Below, in pieces: positions 15,897 to 39,859 of a DNA stretch of 64,000 bases (within the stretch, counting starts at the first letter, position 1; each line of letters starts with the position of its first letter). The translations under genes were made by a program, and so were the position numbers. The stretch lies in NCBI GenBank assembly GCA_947459205.1, contig CANHCR010000007.1, forward strand, positions 1 to 64,000, read 5' to 3'. The notes under the pieces were generated by a model, which worked only from the letters and a program-made list of their open reading frames with translations, was not told the DNA's origin and ran no database searches. The stretch comes from Caryophanales bacterium. Lineage in GTDB: Bacteria > Bacillota > Bacilli > Paenibacillales > CANHCR01.

Positions 15897-18002
15897 TTGT
15901 TTTTAACAAATGGTCAAGATAATAAAGACAAATTTTTTTCGCGACTCCACATCTTGTTTCTCTGTATCGTCATTTTATTTGTAGTGCTTACCGTGCGTCT
16001 TGCCTACTTGCAGTTCGTTAAAGGCGATGAGTTTACTGCGCAAAAGCAAGAACGCATGATTAAGGACGTGCCAATCGCACCGATTCGCGGAAATATTTAT
16101 GACCGGACTGGCCAGACTGTCGCTCGTTCGACCTCTACACAGTCTTTGTTTTACCGTATTGAGCCGAATACTACGCAAGATGATACGATTCGGATGGCAT
16201 ATCGGCTCGCCGAACTGTTCGCAAAATATGGTGATCCCAACAAACCACCAATGACGCCGAATGATGTCATTTTGGCAATGGAAGTCGGCTATGATATTAA
16301 TAAAAAGTCACAGGATAACCTAACGTATAGTTTTTACCCGCGCCGTATCAAATCTGGATTGTCGAACGCTGAGATTGCTTATTTCATGGAAAATCAAAAT
16401 GCTTTGAAGGGCATCGAGATCGTCGAAGAGAGTATCCGTGAATACGATGAGCGAGGGATTGCCGTGCAATTGGTTGGGTACTTGCGAAATTACGGCATCG
16501 CCCGCAACACCAAATCACTTGAAGATCATTATGGTGAGCAGTCAAACGAAAAACGTTCCAAATTGGAGACCTTCATTGATACTGAGGATGTTGGATACGA
16601 CGGTTTGGAGTTGATGTACCAGGATGTGCTTCGCGGCAAAAATGGTTTAAAAAGTTACCCGGTCAACTCGCGCGCACAAATTGTTGGCGATATGTCTATT
16701 ACGCCACCAGTCAAAGGCAATAATCTACATTTAACGATCGATCATCGCGTGCAACTGGCGGCCGAACAGGCGATTCTTGATCAACTGGATTACATGCGCT
16801 CAGGACAGGCAAACCGCTTTGCTTATGCACCGTATGCGCGTGCAGGTTATGCGGTAGCGATGGAAGTGAATACTGGGAAAATCGTGGCGATGGCGAGTAT
16901 GCCTGATTACGATACGAACATTTGGCGGGGCGGTATCAGCCGTAAAGAGCGCGATGAGAATATGTTTTATTTCACAAACGGTACGATTTCGTCGGCTCGC
17001 CCGAATTTTCCGAGCGAAGTAGAAGTGGGTCGACATCCGACATCGATTGTTCCGCTCGGCTCAACGATTAAGCCTTTGACCGTGTTGTTGGGCTTGAATG
17101 AAAAGTTGTTCGGGCCGTATGAGAGATACAACGATACAGGGACGTTTTTTTTCGGTCGCAACAAGCAGGCCAAACTGAGCAATTCCAATCGCAAATCGTA
17201 TGGGGCGATTGATGCAGTTGAAGCTGTGAGAGTTTCCTCCAACACATTTATGGCCGCGTTGATCGGGAATCGACTCGCTGCGCGTAAAGGTGGCGTGGAC
17301 ACATTCGATCGCTACATGAAGGCGTTTGGTTTAGGGACGGAGACCGGCAGTGGTCTTGCGAATGAACATCTTGGTATTCGCGACTACATTCGCGAGGCTG
17401 AACGCAATTCGGCGCAGTCGGCGCTCATCTACGGCTCGTTCGGTCAGCAAGGGAAGTACACGACGTTGCAACTTGCTCAGTTTAGCGCGACACTTGCGAC
17501 GCAGGGCAAGCGTCCGAAACCGTTATTCGTTGAAAAAGTGACCGATGCATCGGGTAAGTTTTTGTACAGTCCACAGCCGCAGATGATGAGCAACTTCAGT
17601 GCCCCGCAACAATACTGGGATATCGTCAATCGCGGGATGGTGAAAGTGACGGAAACGGGGCATGTCGCTGAGTTGTTCCAGGATTTCCCGCACAAAGTGG
17701 CGTCGAAGACAGGGACTTCACAATCTGATATTGCCCGCAAACTAATTGAAAACTCGGTATTCATTTCGTATGCGCCGGCGGAGAAGCCAGTGCTGGCCGT
17801 AGCGGTTGTCGTACCTGAGGGCGGGTATGGCGCATGGAATGCTGCGCCCATTGCCCGCAAAATCTATGAAGCGTATGATTTGGCGATTGGCTTGACAGGT
17901 AAACCGCGGCCGCAGCCGCCCGAAGCGGAGGCGGCAGACGCCGAGCAGGCTGCAGCAGGCGCAGAGCAAGTCACGGAAAACGCGGAGTCGGCGACCGATT
18001 AG
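15897..18002 (+). CDS. Class B penicillin-binding protein (PBP2-type transpeptidase)
   Basis: A 701-residue membrane-anchored D,D-transpeptidase for peptidoglycan cross-linking. One transmembrane segment lies at about residues 18-38 (LFLCIVILFVVLTVRL), followed by a PBP dimerisation domain starting at PIRGNIYDRTGQ. The transpeptidase domain carries the three catalytic motifs: Ser389-Thr-Ile-Lys392, Ser447-Ser-Asn449 and Lys604-Thr-Gly606. The last 35 residues are rich in Ala, Glu and Pro and look disordered. The gene begins at TTG 15897 with GGAGG 6 nt upstream. It resembles the PbpA/PbpH type used in elongation or spore outgrowth, but the exact paralogue is not settled. Confidence 0.9.
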   Translation: MFLTNGQDNKDKFFSRLHILFLCIVILFVVLTVRLAYLQFVKGDEFTAQKQERMIKDVPIAPIRGNIYDRTGQTVARSTSTQSLFYRIEPNTTQDDTIRMAYRLAELFAKYGDPNKPPMTPNDVILAMEVGYDINKKSQDNLTYSFYPRRIKSGLSNAEIAYFMENQNALKGIEIVEESIREYDERGIAVQLVGYLRNYGIARNTKSLEDHYGEQSNEKRSKLETFIDTEDVGYDGLELMYQDVLRGKNGLKSYPVNSRAQIVGDMSITPPVKGNNLHLTIDHRVQLAAEQAILDQLDYMRSGQANRFAYAPYARAGYAVAMEVNTGKIVAMASMPDYDTNIWRGGISRKERDENMFYFTNGTISSARPNFPSEVEVGRHPTSIVPLGSTIKPLTVLLGLNEKLFGPYERYNDTGTFFFGRNKQAKLSNSNRKSYGAIDAVEAVRVSSNTFMAALIGNRLAARKGGVDTFDRYMKAFGLGTETGSGLANEHLGIRDYIREAERNSAQSALIYGSFGQQGKYTTLQLAQFSATLATQGKRPKPLFVEKVTDASGKFLYSPQPQMMSNFSAPQQYWDIVNRGMVKVTETGHVAELFQDFPHKVASKTGTSQSDIARKLIENSVFISYAPAEKPVLAVAVVVPEGGYGAWNAAPIARKIYEAYDLAIGLTGKPRPQPPEAEAADAEQAAAGAEQVTENAESATD

Positions 18003-18020
18003 AGCAACTGCATCGCTTTA

Positions 18021-18029
18021 TGGTATAAT
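18021..18029 (+). promoter_or_regulatory. Extended -10 element before asnB
   Basis: TGGTATAAT lies 35 bp upstream of the asnB start codon and 19 bp after the PBP stop. No matching -35 is evident. Confidence 0.45.
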
Positions 18030-18063
18030 TTGAACAGCATACAAAGAGACAGGTGAAAAAGAT

Positions 18064-19977
18064 ATGTGTGGGATTGCGGGGTTGTTTTATTTTCAACCGC
18101 AGGAGATTAAGAGGGAAGACGCCGATCAATACATTCAAGCAGTCAGCGAATTGATTCATCACCGCGGACCCGATGACGTCGGATCGTTTTCCGACGATTT
18201 GGAACGGGGCGTTTTGTTGGCTTTTCGCAGACTTTCAATCATCGATTTAAAAGAAGGTCATCAACCGCTTTGTAACGTGGCTGAAGATCAGTCGATCTGG
18301 ATCGTGTTTAACGGCGAAATTTATAATTATAAAAAGTTGCGTGCCGAATTAGAGGCGCGTGGGCATCAGTTCACGACACAGTCCGATACGGAAGTCATCG
18401 TTCATATGTATGAGGAGTATGGCGTTGATTGCGTGCGTCATTTGCGTGGCATGTTCGGTTTTGCGATATGGGATCGGCGCAAACAGTTGCTATTCGGAGC
18501 GCGCGATCATTTCGGCATCAAACCGTTTTACTATCACTTAGATGAGGAACGCTTTGTGTTCGGATCGGAAATCAAAAGCATTCTTGCCGCACCAGGTGTA
18601 CAACGGACGGTACAAAGTGAAAGTTTGCTGCAATATTTGACGTTTCAATACGTACCGCAGCCGCAGACGATGTTTGCCGGTATCCATAAGTTACCGCATG
18701 GTCATTATTTTACGTTGACGCGCGACGGACAGTTTGAGATAGAACAATATTGGGACCCGCAGTTCTCGCCTGAGGACCGATCGATTGAGGATTTGATTGA
18801 AGAATTGCGCACTCGTTTGCAAGATTCTGTGGAGCATCACATGCAGAGTGACGTTTCTCGCGGCTGCTTTCTTTCGAGCGGCATCGACTCGACGGCTATC
18901 GCCGCTTATATGCGCCGGATTGAGCCGATCAAGACGTTTTCGGTCGGTTTTGAAGGTGAGCATAACGAAGCGGTGATTTCTTCTGACACAGCGCTCAAAC
19001 TTGGCACGGAGCATTATGCCAAGATGATCAGCGAACAGGACTTTTTTGATGTCATTCCGAATGCCGTCTGGTATCAGGATGAGCCGGTTGCTGACCCTTC
19101 GGCGATTGCACTCTACCATGTGGCACAATTGGCGCGTAAGCACGTGAAAGTTGTGCTCTCAGGGGAAGGCGCCGATGAAATGTTTGGCGGCTACAATATT
19201 TACCGCGAACCGCAAGCGCTACGTCCGCTCAGTTGGTTGCCAGATTCGCTCAAACAGCGAATTCATGGCATGGTGGCAACGTTACCGGAAAAGGTGTACG
19301 GTCGCAATTACTTGTTGCGCGCGACAACGCCGCTTGAACAGCGGTTTTTCGGGAACGCGAAAATTTTCACCGATGACATCAAGGGACTGATTTTATCGGA
19401 CTCGCTGGCAAAAGTAGAATCGTATTTGAATGCGAGCGAACTTGTTGCACCGTACTATGAGCGTACGAAGGACTGGGATCCCGTCTCGCGCATGCAGTAC
19501 ATCGACATGCATTTTTGGATGCCAGGCGATATTTTGATGAAAGCCGACAAGATGACGATGGCGCATTCGCTGGAGTTGCGCGTGCCGTTTCTCGACAAGG
19601 AGTTGTTCGAGGTGGTCCGTAAAATACCTGCGAAGTATCGTGTCGCTGAAGGTACGACGAAAATGATTTTCCGCAAGGCGATGGAAGGGATCGTGCCAGA
19701 AACGATTTTGCATCGAAAAAAGTTGGGGTTCCCTGTGCCTCTCAAAGAGTGGTTGTATGGTGAGCGTGCCGGACAGTTGCTCGACCAGATTAAATCGGCG
19801 GGCATTGAGGCGTTTTTTAATATGAAAGAAGTGGAACGGATGATGGCGCAACATCGTTCCGGACAGGCTGACCATGCGCGTAAAATATGGGTTGTGTACA
19901 TGTTTGCGCTATGGCATTCGACATACATCACTTCGAATCAATGGCGCCGGGAGGTTGTCCGACATGGCGAAGTATAA
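18064..19977 (+). CDS. asnB: Asparagine synthase (glutamine-hydrolysing)
   Basis: Makes asparagine from aspartate, glutamine and ATP. The 637 residues contain an N-terminal class II glutamine amidotransferase domain with the nucleophile Cys2 (MCGIAGLF) and RGPDD near residue 36, and a C-terminal synthetase domain with the ATP pyrophosphatase P-loop SSGIDSTAIAAYM. LSGEGADEMFGGY is also present. The length matches the AsnB/AsnO group of Bacilli. The AGGTG ribosome-binding site sits 9 nt before the ATG. The final 14 bp overlap the following hydrolase gene, which suggests translational coupling. Confidence 0.93.
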   Translation: MCGIAGLFYFQPQEIKREDADQYIQAVSELIHHRGPDDVGSFSDDLERGVLLAFRRLSIIDLKEGHQPLCNVAEDQSIWIVFNGEIYNYKKLRAELEARGHQFTTQSDTEVIVHMYEEYGVDCVRHLRGMFGFAIWDRRKQLLFGARDHFGIKPFYYHLDEERFVFGSEIKSILAAPGVQRTVQSESLLQYLTFQYVPQPQTMFAGIHKLPHGHYFTLTRDGQFEIEQYWDPQFSPEDRSIEDLIEELRTRLQDSVEHHMQSDVSRGCFLSSGIDSTAIAAYMRRIEPIKTFSVGFEGEHNEAVISSDTALKLGTEHYAKMISEQDFFDVIPNAVWYQDEPVADPSAIALYHVAQLARKHVKVVLSGEGADEMFGGYNIYREPQALRPLSWLPDSLKQRIHGMVATLPEKVYGRNYLLRATTPLEQRFFGNAKIFTDDIKGLILSDSLAKVESYLNASELVAPYYERTKDWDPVSRMQYIDMHFWMPGDILMKADKMTMAHSLELRVPFLDKELFEVVRKIPAKYRVAEGTTKMIFRKAMEGIVPETILHRKKLGFPVPLKEWLYGERAGQLLDQIKSAGIEAFFNMKEVERMMAQHRSGQADHARKIWVVYMFALWHSTYITSNQWRREVVRHGEV

Positions 19978-36582: not shown

Positions 36583-36816
36583 TTGGGCAGTCATTTGGAA
36601 GAAGAAACATTTGGTTTGCGGATTTTGACGTTACGTGAACGCGAAGTGTTTGAGTTGCTCGTGCAAAATCTGACGACGCGTGAAATTGCCGGCAAAATGT
36701 TTATCAGCGAAAAGACCGTTCGAAATCACATCAGCAATGTGATGCAGAAGCTGAACGTGAAAGGGCGCTCGCAAGCGGTCGTGGAGCTGATACGGCTGGG
36801 CGAGTTGAAGATTTGA
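36583..36816 (+). CDS. gerE: Spore coat regulator GerE (LuxR-type HTH)
   Basis: A 77-residue DNA-binding protein consisting of one LuxR/FixJ helix-turn-helix. The stretch LTLREREVFELLVQNLTTREIAG and ISEKTVRNHISNVMQKL, then KGRSQAVVELIRLGEL, are almost the same as B. subtilis GerE (74 residues) as I recall it. GerE activates and represses late coat genes in the mother cell. I choose the TTG at 36583 because AGGAGGGG lies 7 nt upstream; the ATG at 36526 would give a non-homologous 19-residue leader. The last 91 bp of this gene recur twice downstream (37661 and 38476). Confidence 0.92.
   Translation: MGSHLEEETFGLRILTLREREVFELLVQNLTTREIAGKMFISEKTVRNHISNVMQKLNVKGRSQAVVELIRLGELKI
36725..36743 (+). 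repeat. Inverted repeat at the head of the duplicated gerE tail
   Basis: ATCACAT-CAGCA-ATGTGAT: two 7-bp arms around a 5-bp centre, within the codons for the GerE recognition helix. It marks the exact left edge of the segment that is repeated downstream. In the downstream copies the right arm is intact, and the left arm is partly replaced (AACACAT). This is the geometry of a tyrosine-recombinase core site, but it could be chance. Confidence 0.6.
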
Positions 36817-36817
36817 G
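36727..36817 (+). repeat. gerE 3' segment, reference copy of a three-copy direct repeat
   Basis: The last 91 bp of gerE including the stop codon. It is repeated at 37661-37751 with 88 of 91 identical bases and at 38476-38554 with 73 of 79 identical bases, by direct count. Confidence 0.97.
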
Positions 36818-36834
36818 TATTAAGCGAAATTTTG

Positions 36835-36864
36835 ATCCGTTACATGAAAATGTAGCGGATTTTT
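36835..36864 (+). terminator. Terminator downstream of gerE
   Basis: ATCCGTTACAT pairs with ATGTAGCGGAT (one G-U pair) across a four-base loop and is followed by Ts. A different terminator follows the second gerE tail. Confidence 0.85.
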
Positions 36865-36902
36865 CACATTTAACATGAAATACGTGGTATGATTGAACAT
36901 AG

Positions 36903-36929
36903 AGTAAAGAATATCAAGAAGTAAAGAAT
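36903..36929 (+). promoter_or_regulatory. Direct repeat, candidate operator of the AbrB/PIN module
   Basis: AGTAAAGAAT occurs at 36903-36912 and again at 36920-36929, between an extended -10 (TGGTATGAT, 36885-36893) and the ribosome-binding site of the antitoxin gene. Antitoxins of this type usually bind their own promoter, so this is a reasonable operator candidate. Confidence 0.4.
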
Positions 36930-36947
36930 TACTGGAGGGGATATTAG

Positions 36948-37214
36948 ATGGAAATATCAAGATTAAGTTCAAAAGGTCAAGTGACGATTCCGAAAAGCAT
37001 TCGAGATATGTTGAATTTAAGTGAAGGTGATCGCGTCGCATTTGTGGTGGAGCAAGGGAAAGTGGTGGTTACCAAGGCAAGTTTGATTGCGCTCCAAGAG
37101 TTGCAACAAGCGCTAAGTCAGGATTTGGCCATTCGTGGAGAAACTGAAAAAGATGTCATGAAGGAATTGTCTTTGGTGCGGGAGGAACTTTCGGGTGAGC
37201 GATACAAAACGTAG
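36948..37214 (+). CDS. AbrB/MazE-type antitoxin
   Basis: An 88-residue protein with an N-terminal swapped-hairpin AbrB DNA-binding domain (ISRLSSKGQVTIPKSIRDMLNLSEGDRVAFVVEQGKVVV, residues 3-41) and a helical C-terminal tail (residues 45-88) that should bind the toxin. The ATG follows GGAGGGG by 8 nt. It overlaps the PIN toxin gene by 20 bp, the usual arrangement for a type II toxin-antitoxin pair. The module lies between gerE and the second gerE tail. Confidence 0.88.
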   Translation: MEISRLSSKGQVTIPKSIRDMLNLSEGDRVAFVVEQGKVVVTKASLIALQELQQALSQDLAIRGETEKDVMKELSLVREELSGERYKT

Positions 37215-37644
37215 TCGGTTGCGTGTCTTCGTAGACACAAATGTCATCATTTCTGCGATTTTATCTCAAACATCGGTGAGTGCAAGGTTTTTGCATTTTG
37301 TCATTTTAGAGCATGAATTGCTTATTTGCAGTTACACACTTGAAGAAATTCATCGAGTGTTTGAACGTAAATTTCCGGATCGAATATCACTATGGCAGAC
37401 ATTTTTATCTGCATTAAAGTATGAATTGATCGAAACGCCGAAGGAATTAAGCAGAGTAAACTCGGTTCAGATAAGAGATGTTCATGATGTTCCAATTTTA
37501 GGTTCAGCTTTACTCTGTAAACCTGATTATCTGGTGACGGGTGATCATGATTTTTTTACGGAAGAGATCATGAGCAAATTTCAAGTCAATTCACCCGCGA
37601 TTTTTTTAGAAAAGTATAGTAATCAAAATGGTTCAATGAACTAG
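37195..37644 (+). CDS. PIN-domain toxin (putative RNase)
   Basis: A 149-residue PIN-domain protein of the TIGR00305 type (putative toxin component of an AbrB-PIN pair). The acidic catalytic residues are visible: Asp14 in RVFVDTNVIISAIL, the glutamate in YTLEEIHRVFERKF, and the aspartates in RDVHDVPILGSALLCKPDYLVTGDHDFF. It would act as a Mg-dependent RNase held in check by the antitoxin. Start is GTG 37195 after GGAGGAAC. The reading frame appears intact. Confidence 0.87.
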   Translation: MSDTKRSRLRVFVDTNVIISAILSQTSVSARFLHFVILEHELLICSYTLEEIHRVFERKFPDRISLWQTFLSALKYELIETPKELSRVNSVQIRDVHDVPILGSALLCKPDYLVTGDHDFFTEEIMSKFQVNSPAIFLEKYSNQNGSMN

Positions 37645-37660
37645 ATTCATGTTTTCAAAA

Positions 37661-37751
37661 CACATTAGCAATGTGATGCAGAAGCTGAACGTGAAAGTGC
37701 GCTCGCAGGCGGTCGTGGAGCTGATACGGCTGGGCGAGTTGAAGATTTGAG
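37661..37751 (+). repeat. Second copy of the gerE 3' tail
   Basis: 91 bp, three differences from the gerE end: ATC to ATT and CAA to CAG, both silent, and GGG to GTG (Gly to Val). The frame is open to the TGA. With the preceding bases it makes a 33-codon frame from the ATG at 37649 (MFSK, then HISNVMQKL and on to GELKI), but no ribosome-binding site is seen. Confidence 0.95.
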
Positions 37752-37776
37752 ATGTGATTGAGAATGGTGAGATCAG

Positions 37777-37819
37777 ACCGCATCTGTCGGAGCGAGTGCT
37801 TTGGTGGATGCGGTTTTTT
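37777..37819 (+). terminator. Terminator after the second gerE tail
   Basis: ACCGCATC pairs with GATGCGGT and is followed by six Ts. This may be the original gerE terminator displaced by the first toxin-antitoxin insertion. Confidence 0.7.
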
Positions 37820-37841
37820 GAGTAAATTTTGCACATAATTA

Positions 37842-37850
37842 TGGTATAAT
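37842..37850 (+). promoter_or_regulatory. Extended -10 promoter element of the Phd/ParE module
   Basis: TGGTATAAT lies 33 bp before the antitoxin start codon, in an AT-rich stretch. No -35 at the usual distance. Confidence 0.5.
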
Positions 37851-37882
37851 AATGTTACTAAAATGCTTGATAGGGTGTACCT

Positions 37883-38149
37883 ATGCCACATATTAGACCG
37901 ATTACCGATTTAAGAAACACCAATGAGATTTCAGAACTGTGTCACAAACTCGATGAACCAATATTTATTACGAAAAACGGATATGGGGACTTGGTTGTGA
38001 TGAGTATCGAGACATATGAACGTCAATTAGCGATGGTCGAGCTTTATAAAAAGCTGGCTGAGGCTGAACAAGAGGTTGCTGAAGGCAAACCTCCTATTCC
38101 AGCAGAGGCCGTATTTGAAAAAATCATGAGAGAGTATGGAAGAAAATAA
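37883..38149 (+). CDS. Phd/YefM-type antitoxin
   Basis: An 88-residue antitoxin. The N-terminal half (RPITDLRNTNEISELCHKLDEPIFITKNGYGDLVVMSIETYERQL) is the Phd/YefM DNA-binding domain; the C-terminal half is a charged helix that would wrap the toxin. AGGGTG precedes the ATG by 6 nt. It overlaps the toxin gene by 14 bp. It appears intact, while its partner toxin carries a stop codon. Confidence 0.9.
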   Translation: MPHIRPITDLRNTNEISELCHKLDEPIFITKNGYGDLVVMSIETYERQLAMVELYKKLAEAEQEVAEGKPPIPAEAVFEKIMREYGRK

Positions 38150-38456
38150 GTATCAGGTCGAATTTACTCCTAAAGCGATTGCTGACCTAGAACAAATTTA
38201 TTTATACATTGCTAACGAGTTATTTAATCCTGATGCAGCTCAACGGTTGCTGGACAAATTTGAAAAGAAGATCATGATTCTCAGAAGTTATCCTTTCTCA
38301 AGTAACATCGTACAGGACAGTTTTTTGCGAAAAAAGGGTTATCGAAAATTAGTGGTCGACAATTATTTGGTGTTTTATTTAGTTGATGAAATTGAAAATA
38401 AGGTGTAAATCATGAGAGTTTTATATGGTGCACAGCAATATAAACGATACTTGTGA
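38136..38456 (+). pseudogene. ParE/RelE-family toxin with an in-frame premature stop
   Basis: The frame starts at 38136 and codes for 90 residues typical of ParE/RelE toxins (VEFTPKAIADLEQIYLYIANEL, LLDKFEKKIMILRSYPFSS, KGYRKLVVDNYLVFYLVDE), then meets TAA at 38406-38408. Reading on in the same frame gives IMRVLYGAQQYKRYL and a TGA at 38454-38456. That is the normal last strand of this family (VRVLYGAQQY is a hallmark), so the TAA is a nonsense change, most simply from a Tyr codon (TAT/TAC). The truncated product loses about 16 residues of the core and is probably inactive. Confidence 0.85.
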
Positions 38457-38475
38457 TCTAGTTATACTTTCAAAA

Positions 38476-38554
38476 CACATCAGCAATGTGATGCAGAAAC
38501 TGAACGTGAAAGGGCGCTCGCAGGCGGTCATGGAGTTGATTCGGTTGGGCGAGT
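38476..38554 (+). repeat. Third copy of the gerE 3' tail
   Basis: 79 bp with six differences from gerE, of which five are silent (AAG/AAA, CAA/CAG, CTG/TTG, ATA/ATT, CTG/TTG) and one is Val to Met. Similarity stops within GAGT, before the last four codons. The left flank shares TTTCAAAA with the second copy. Confidence 0.93.
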
Positions 38555-38646
38555 ATGTTTCGGTAGAAGTGGTTTTTAATTAATTTTGATTCCCAAACCA
38601 TGATTCTGTAAGTATAATAAATTAAAAAACTTTAAGATGAGGCCTT

Positions 38647-38823
38647 ATGATCAAAGACGAAGTTAAAAAAATGATCGATAACCTGCCTGGCGATTGTACG
38701 TTAGAGGAAATCCAATACACTCAATATGTTCAAGCGAAACTGTTAAAAGCGCTAGATGACGTTGAACACGGCCGGACGCTCGATGCGGATGAGATGATCA
38801 AAAAATTTTCACAAATATTTTGA
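38647..38823 (+). CDS. Orphan addiction-module antitoxin-like small protein
   Basis: A 58-residue ORF: MIKDEVKKMIDNLP, then TLEEIQYTQYVQAKLLKALDDVEHGRTLDADEMIKKF. The pattern of an alpha-helical repeat followed by D-x-E-x-GR-(T)-x-x-x-E resembles antitoxins that partner RelE/ParE toxins (TIGR02574-like). A TATAAT at 38613-38618 and GATGAGG upstream suggest expression. No toxin gene follows: the next 70 bp are non-coding and then an unrelated gene starts. It may be the remainder of a third toxin-antitoxin insertion. Confidence 0.65.
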   Translation: MIKDEVKKMIDNLPGDCTLEEIQYTQYVQAKLLKALDDVEHGRTLDADEMIKKFSQIF

Positions 38824-38899
38824 CTACCCCCCTCAAAATTTGAAACGCTTACGAATGTTTTATTAGAAACAAAAAACGAGATGAAAAGGAATGATGAAG

Positions 38900-39859
38900 A
38901 TGAAGATGAAGATGATGAAAACAGTGCTTGCCACCACGATTACGGTCGGTTTGTTGCTCGTACCGTTCAGCGGAGCGTTGGCTGGCGATAGTAAATCCCG
39001 TTCGAGCAAAGGGGTATTGACAGCGGAGCAGAAAGCAGCAAAAGAAGCTGCGGAACAAGCGAAGGATGCAAGGGAAGCGGCGAAGAAAGCGGCTGAGCAG
39101 GCGAAAGAGGCTGCGAAAAAGGCGAGAGAAGCTGAATCAAAAGCGAAAAAAGAGAAAGATGAGTCTGAAGATGCAGATGATGATGCCGATGAAAAAGCAA
39201 AAGAGGCAGCAAAGAAAAATAAAGATAAAGTAGCGAAGGCGGAAGCGGCAAAAGCAAAGGCGGAAGCGGAAAAACAAAAGAAAGAAGCAGAAGCAGCTGC
39301 AAAGGCTGCTGAGCAAGCAAAGAAAGCGGAATTGAAAGCTGCTTATGAGAAATTAAAAGAAGAAGCAAAAGCGGCGAACGCAAATGCTGAGGCGAAAGGA
39401 AAGGAATTGGCTCAGTTAGAAAAAGAAGCGGTCTCAGAAGCGAGCGAAGAGTTAGTGGCTGCACAAGAGGCGGCGAAACAAGCGCAAGTAGCGGCAGATG
39501 CGAAGGTTGCTGAATTAAAGGCGCTGAAACTGGCGGCGAAAGAAGCGAAAGAGGCGGCTGAACTCGAGAAGAAAGCAGCGAAAGCGAAGAAATCTGAAAT
39601 GAAAGCAGCGAAGAAAGCGGCTGAGAAAGCGAAAGAAGAAGCAGAGAAAGCGGCTGAAGCAGCCAAAAAAGCTAGCAAGAAAGCAAAGGAAAAAAATGGC
39701 GTAGCTGAGGCTGCAAAAGCGAAAGTGAAGAAGGAAAAAGCGGAGCGTGAGGCGGCGAAGAAAGCGGCTGAAGTGGCAAGAAAAGCGAAGAAGGAAGCGG
39801 AGGAAGCAGCTGAGAAAGCGGCTGAACTCGTGCCGGCAACACCTCCTGTTGCTTCGTAA
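38900..39859 (+). CDS. Secreted Ala/Lys/Glu-rich coiled-coil protein
   Basis: About 319 residues. A signal peptide (MKMKMMKTVLATTITVGLLLVPFSGALAG) is followed by some 280 residues made almost only of Ala, Lys and Glu in heptad-like order (EAAKKAAEQAKEAAKKAREAE and similar), with an acidic patch (DESEDADDDADE) at about residue 88. It should form a long charged helix or coiled coil outside the cell. No enzymatic motif is seen and I do not recognise a family. The start is uncertain: several ATGs are stacked at 38891, 38894, 38900 and 38906; 38900 is 9 nt from AAAAGGA. A terminator follows. Confidence 0.75.
   Translation: MKMKMMKTVLATTITVGLLLVPFSGALAGDSKSRSSKGVLTAEQKAAKEAAEQAKDAREAAKKAAEQAKEAAKKAREAESKAKKEKDESEDADDDADEKAKEAAKKNKDKVAKAEAAKAKAEAEKQKKEAEAAAKAAEQAKKAELKAAYEKLKEEAKAANANAEAKGKELAQLEKEAVSEASEELVAAQEAAKQAQVAADAKVAELKALKLAAKEAKEAAELEKKAAKAKKSEMKAAKKAAEKAKEEAEKAAEAAKKASKKAKEKNGVAEAAKAKVKKEKAEREAAKKAAEVARKAKKEAEEAAEKAAELVPATPPVAS

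Follow-up and report, generated by a model that had tools for sequence, protein, structure and literature searches.

Two toxin–antitoxin units behind an intact gerE as probable remnants of gerE-targeting large serine integrase elements

The tolerance of mobile elements lodged in sporulation genes is ascribed to their excision on cue. Skin, SPbeta in spsM, vfbin and the other sporulation gene-intervening elements are serine-integrase elements residing in mother-cell sporulation genes (PMC4191935). The gene gerE is itself a described target. In Bacillus cereus ATCC 10987, the element gin sits in the Ile47-Asn49 codons of gerE, encodes the large serine recombinase GirC and its partner GirX, and has an imperfect inverted repeat around a 9-bp core (PMC5595907). 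A Xenia-type phage of Paenibacillus larvae integrates into gerE in the laboratory with a 9-base duplication (2025 study, PMC12453123). An earlier note on the present DNA had named no described cassette system using gerE, and these two cases fill that gap. At other loci, CIMEs and the tandem accretion of ICEs and IMEs provide examples of decayed, integrase-less elements piled at one attachment site by successive insertions (PMC5704250).

Here we analysed a 64,000-nucleotide stretch from a Caryophanales bacterium (the window), in which an intact gerE is followed by displaced copies of its own 3' end (tails) and by predicted toxin–antitoxin (TA) genes. The features are as follows.

36583–36816, + strand: intact gerE, 77 aa, LuxR/GerE helix-turn-helix protein (Pfam GerE)
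36727–36738, + strand: integration target, the His-Ile-Ser-Asn codons of gerE, positioned by comparison with relatives and with gin (PMC5595907)
36727–36817, + strand: tail 1, the restored gerE 3' end with the regenerated attB-like core CACATCAGCAATGTGATG
36948–37214, + strand: predicted MazE/AbrB-fold antitoxin (Pfam PF04014, E 4e-12; TIGR01439)
37195–37644, + strand: predicted PIN_3 toxin (Pfam PF13470, E 2e-11; TIGR00305), ending 8 bp short of the attP left arm
37653–37665, + strand: attP left arm TTTCAAAACACAT of element 1, the element half of attR 1, matching attP of phages Lily and Shelly
37661–37751, + strand: tail 2, displaced gerE 3' end, 88/91 identity to the gerE tail
37883–38149, + strand: predicted Phd/YefM antitoxin (Pfam PF02604, E 5e-9)
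38136–38408, + strand: predicted ParE/RelE toxin (Pfam PF05016, E 4e-13)
38468–38480, + strand: attP left arm TTTCAAAACACAT of element 2, the element half of attR 2, assigned by comparison with relatives
38476–38554, + strand: tail 3, displaced gerE 3' end, the most diverged, native end missing, 73/79 identity
38647–38823, + strand: 58-aa ORF 3' of tail 3

The gerE start codon is TTG, preceded by AGGAGGGG, and the reading frame is whole in this genome, so that the host gene is not interrupted in the manner of a sporulation gene-intervening element. A whole-genome search found just three copies of the gerE tail in the 2.5 Mb genome, all in the window. Tails 2 and 3 both begin at the His-Ile-Ser-Asn target codons (His codon at 36727), on the same strand as gerE; the recurrences were thus recovered as the earlier note had given them. 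Divergence from gerE is 3% for tail 2, whose translation has a Gly-to-Val change at a conserved site (KGRSQ to KVRSQ), and 8% for tail 3. The 13-bp flank TTTCAAAACACAT that the note had seen before both tails occurs in the whole genome at 37653 and 38468 only; it is absent from gerE and is part of what was inserted. A repeat of 91 bp lies far outside what chance would give, and it is unlikely to stem from misassembly, since the copies differ by several bases and a like arrangement is found on multi-megabase contigs of four relatives (G250, G262, G283, and G349).

The genes between the tails match Pfam and NCBIfam families in the order the note had read, AbrB/PIN and then Phd/ParE, and each neighbouring pair has, on these family matches, the predicted layout of a type II TA system. 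The pairs stop 8 bp (MazE/PIN) and 59 bp (Phd/ParE) before the arm, in the position adjoining attR, and the units are 0.72–0.85 kb long. No Pfam, NCBIfam or PHROG model matched the 58-aa ORF after tail 3, so that its designation as an orphan antitoxin is unconfirmed. Just 3' of the array, at 38891–39859, lies a 322-aa ORF of secreted type, repetitive and rich in Ala, Lys, and Glu, with no Pfam match.

The integration target was placed by comparison across 399 genomes of the order, the window's included and the rest outside its genus and family. In these relatives too, gerE matches are interrupted at the His-Ile-Ser-Asn codons. Ile-Ser-Asn are residues 50–52 of the 77-aa GerE in the window and 47–49 of 74 in B. 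cereus, an equivalent position in the protein. The target is therefore mid-gene and not, as had been supposed, the 3' end of gerE. Alignment of the junctions across relatives showed that a common arm, GTAYTTCAAAMCACAT, precedes the displaced tails and that a mirrored arm, ATGTGGTTTGAAAT, follows the truncated 5' halves; as read from this alignment, the two arms are the halves of a near-palindromic attP. The attP is intact in the P. larvae phages Shelly and Lily, where it reads GTRTTTCAAACCACATCTCCAAT... and lies directly after the serine integrase stop codon (also in IMG/VR records), and the Shelly/Lily integrase is 48–49% identical to that of one split-gerE element. A translated search found no gerE tails in phage genomes, consistent with phages having attP and not the tail. 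The attR pattern (flank joined to gerE tail) was found in 48 of the 399 genomes, in 17 of 50 genera, and the attL arm pattern in 31, the reversed-pattern controls giving 0 in both cases; the search patterns were derived partly from loci later counted with them. In the window's genome, attR occurs twice and attL (right arm joined to the 5' half of gerE) has no match. Joined left and right arms, forming attP-like sites away from gerE, were observed in G267 (L201) and G348 (L207), together with a nearly full-length gerE match.

The loci of every attR genome except the window's were read over up to 20 kb, and two states of gerE were distinguished. In state A, gerE is split by an element with attL, attR, and a large serine integrase of about 540 aa. 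These elements range from 2.6 kb (G221) to 46 kb (G147), and their integrases form one family with Resolvase, Recombinase, and Zn_ribbon domains, 39–94% identical to each other; the integrase gene often ends about 15 bp short of attR. The minimal element of about 2.6 kb (L206 in G221, oriented 16130–18713) has little beyond the integrase and is a good candidate for locating the excision factor. In state B, which accounts for about 5% of the sampled related genomes, gerE is intact and a displaced attR with its tail lies 0.5–14 kb downstream. The exception is G125, where the displaced attR and tail lie about 1 kb from gerE in the opposite orientation. Between them and the intact gerE is a two-gene pair (L162; 99 and 92 aa, no family match), possibly a new TA-like pair accompanied by an inversion.

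Neither attL nor an intact family integrase was found in any of the 20 state B genomes, the window's included, whereas the other attR genomes have attL in 21 of 25 cases and the integrase in 23 of 25 (Fisher test, 5e-9 and 7e-11, respectively, uncorrected for kinship); some of the 25 run unresolved beyond 20 kb, and G267, G348, and G381 were excluded for having att sites away from gerE. At an intact-gerE locus outside the pattern matches (L114 in G013) the integrase is frameshifted, and another such locus (L198) has a 38-aa integrase fragment. In the window's units, as the note had observed, there is no integrase, and none related to the family remains in the genome. The sole PF07508 serine recombinase of that genome (L210, at G000:C2:12897–13181) has 566 aa and is about 25% identical to the gerE integrase family. 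Because both attL and the family integrase are absent, the units are, on comparison with relatives, probable remnants and not complete members of gerE-targeting large-serine-integrase elements, and the window represents, by the same comparison, state B twice in succession. Excision in sporulation would not be expected of such units. The note had assumed a system that replaces the 3' end of its target gene; the family that uses this site consists of large serine integrases and splits the gene. A tyrosine-recombinase reading, in which the element carries the gene's 3' end, was likewise dropped on finding the split-gerE loci with their serine integrase.

Two relatives show how a remnant can be derived from a complete element. 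In G227 (state B), the 5.5 kb insert aligns with the final 5.2 kb, through and past attR, of the 36 kb state A element of G203, and the insert of G057 (state B) matches the final 5.7 kb of the 34 kb state A element of G199, at 79–80% identity over 5.2 and 5.7 kb. Since the matches are to the attR-proximal ends, these inserts are, from the alignments, elements shortened from the attL side. What the note had taken for small cassettes as such are accordingly best read as truncated larger elements, by analogy with these 5.2–5.7 kb portions of 34–36 kb elements. An empty and filled pair was provided by P. taichungensis, which has the empty site for G250: 1.2 kb is collinear, and the gerE tail, repeated directly over 172 bp, flanks the 1.8 kb insert on both sides. 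The window's TA proteins and isocitrate dehydrogenase were sought beside gerE in the fetched relatives and found in none, so that this genome has no direct empty site among them.

The origin of the second tail can be judged from its similarity to the first. Two tail copies within one genome are usually far closer to each other than to other species, non-coding DNA past the stop codon included; in G283 they agree at 164 of 164 positions, compared with 91% to the nearest other species compared. Because the copies track the tail of their own genome, the comparison suggests that the displaced and restored tails arose by local duplication of the resident tail, and not, as the note had proposed, that each insert brings a new one. 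The copied length varies from locus to locus, which is what independent accidents would produce and a fixed cassette would not. A common Arg-to-His change (KGRSQ to KGHSQ) was observed in the displaced tails of L043, L114, and L115.

The part of the note that proposed successive site-specific insertions at gerE, each leaving a displaced tail, is borne out by relatives with stacked attR. G248 has a 14 kb state A element ahead of an older displaced tail, with two attR 1.04 kb apart, and G262, G349, G389, and G160 have the arrangement of the window, an intact gerE and two displaced tails. In the window, an order in which Phd/ParE came earlier and MazE/PIN later, with the newest insert adjoining gerE and tail 3 the oldest, fits the 3% and 8% divergence of tails 2 and 3, the conserved-residue change in tail 2, and the lost end of tail 3.

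The attR-adjoining position in other genomes is occupied by known or candidate defence genes, in the attR-proximal 2–5 kb of L180, L168, L181, L184, and L189. They include PARIS-like AriA/AriB (G236), Lamassu-like LmuA/LmuB (G147), a SIR2/ThsA-like protein (G295), GmrSD (G203 and G227), and a NACHT-type protein (G136). In Shelly and Lily, HicAB lies directly across attP. With defence genes beside attR elsewhere and HicAB across a phage attP, TA pairs are plausible as attR-side cargo, and gerE looks like a defence-gene hotspot in Paenibacillus relatives. Often found near gerE, in either orientation and sometimes within inserts, are a retropepsin-like protease gene and a small ORF upstream of it (L051, L118, L064, L104, and others). 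This pair was rejected as insert cargo; it also stands beside undisturbed gerE in other species and is a common neighbour.

We consider it likely, with a probability of roughly 0.8, that the window's units are stranded, truncated gerE-targeting elements from two insertions, with gerE mended by a copied tail. Twice, a gerE-specific large serine integrase would have recombined the attP of an element with attB inside gerE, at His-Ile-Ser-Asn, splitting the gene and creating attL (5' gerE and right arm) and attR (left arm TTTCAAAACACAT and 3' gerE). On both occasions the integrase and the attL side would then have disappeared, and a second copy of the resident tail would have restored gerE before the remnant, which would thus have been cut off, with an intact gerE on one side and a displaced attR with its tail on the other. 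The restored gerE would bear attB again, and a second element could then have entered ahead of the first. The simplest route for the tail copy would be a single illegitimate join of two chromosomes, one from which the element had been excised and one that still carried it; selection for sporulation without excision would then fix the copy. The TA pairs would be the surviving attR-proximal cargo, and the resistance of TA systems to loss may account for their being what remains. The steps seen in relatives, namely the exact site and its arms, the integrase family, the split and restored states, the loss of the attL side, tail duplication, and, in two relatives, truncation, with successive insertion in another, are read from sequence comparison; that the window passed through them, by this route and with TA pairs retained for this reason, we infer. 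As a counterpoint, many intact elements have the integrase adjoining attR, the end that stranded inserts keep, and the loss of the integrase would therefore need an extra deletion.

The tail copy could instead have come about through an imprecise circle, carrying attR and the gerE tail, that re-entered by homologous recombination with the tail in gerE. This Campbell-type route, a variant of the stranded-element reading, accounts precisely for the order in which the parts are found; homology of 90–190 bp is available in the tails, and the extra 5' pieces or second full gerE at some loci (L114 and L170) are what variable breakpoints would give. It takes two rare events, though one illegitimate join would be enough, and no circle was seen; as a route it seems to us doubtful.

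A larger departure would be to regard the units as small TA cassettes, each with its own gerE tail, moved in trans by a gerE-specific recombinase and re-capping gerE on entry. The shortness and regularity of the window's units (0.72–0.85 kb) speak for cassettes, as do similar short units in several relatives, some of them paired (L194, L195, L200, and L193). The recombinase of the site, however, belongs to the large serine integrases, and complete elements of this family split gerE without bearing a tail; a unit ended by attR is not a normal substrate of such an enzyme. The copied tails match the host's own tail and not that of other species, with an endpoint that differs per locus, and two of the inserts are truncations of larger elements. 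We regard such cassettes as improbable, and hold out equally little hope for the version in which the gerE-specific serine integrases of resident phages supply the movement and the re-armed gerE becomes a growing cassette array. A further origin, in which gerE was duplicated in tandem and then decayed and TA genes landed there by accident, could draw on the second full or nearly full gerE of some relatives (L170 and L043). It is contradicted by the shared 13-bp flank behind which both displaced copies begin at one codon, and which neither gerE nor any other part of the genome contains; this flank type and start are found in 47 other genomes as well. The comparison of the region downstream of gerE that the note had proposed revealed displaced tails in relatives and generally no full-length tandem paralogues with transposed genes, so that neither outcome by which the note would have given up its model came about. 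We consider the tandem-duplication origin highly improbable.

The stranded-element reading would describe an alternative outcome to excision, recurrent across the order, in which the integrase is lost, gerE is made permanently intact by tail copying, a fresh attachment site arises, and the remnant remains in place together with its cargo. The displaced tails would be a record of past attacks on gerE by phages and other elements, marking the gene in Paenibacillus relatives as an accumulation site for defence systems and TA pairs, and the escape of a host from dependence on an element becomes testable. No description of this restored gerE state was found in the literature searched, with most subscription journals outside its coverage.

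Among known systems, skin, SPbeta/spsM, and vfbin differ from the window in that they interrupt their gene and rely on regulated excision. Xenia, Shelly, and Lily are complete temperate phages, whereas the window has attR scars and TA genes only; the attP of Shelly and Lily is nevertheless of the window's left-arm type. CIMEs resemble the window in having no integrase and in stacking at one site, but they keep both attL and attR and are mobilisable; in the window attL, absent from the whole genome, appears to have been lost, the site lies in the middle of a gene, and a copied tail appears to have restored that gene. The element gin, likened here to the gerE integrase family by its site and description and not by the GirC sequence, shares the Ile-Ser-Asn codons of gerE as insertion site and a non-phage cargo. 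Unlike the window, gin retains its integrase and RDF, and its gerE is rebuilt only in sporulation; the window has neither attL nor integrase, and its gerE is permanently intact.
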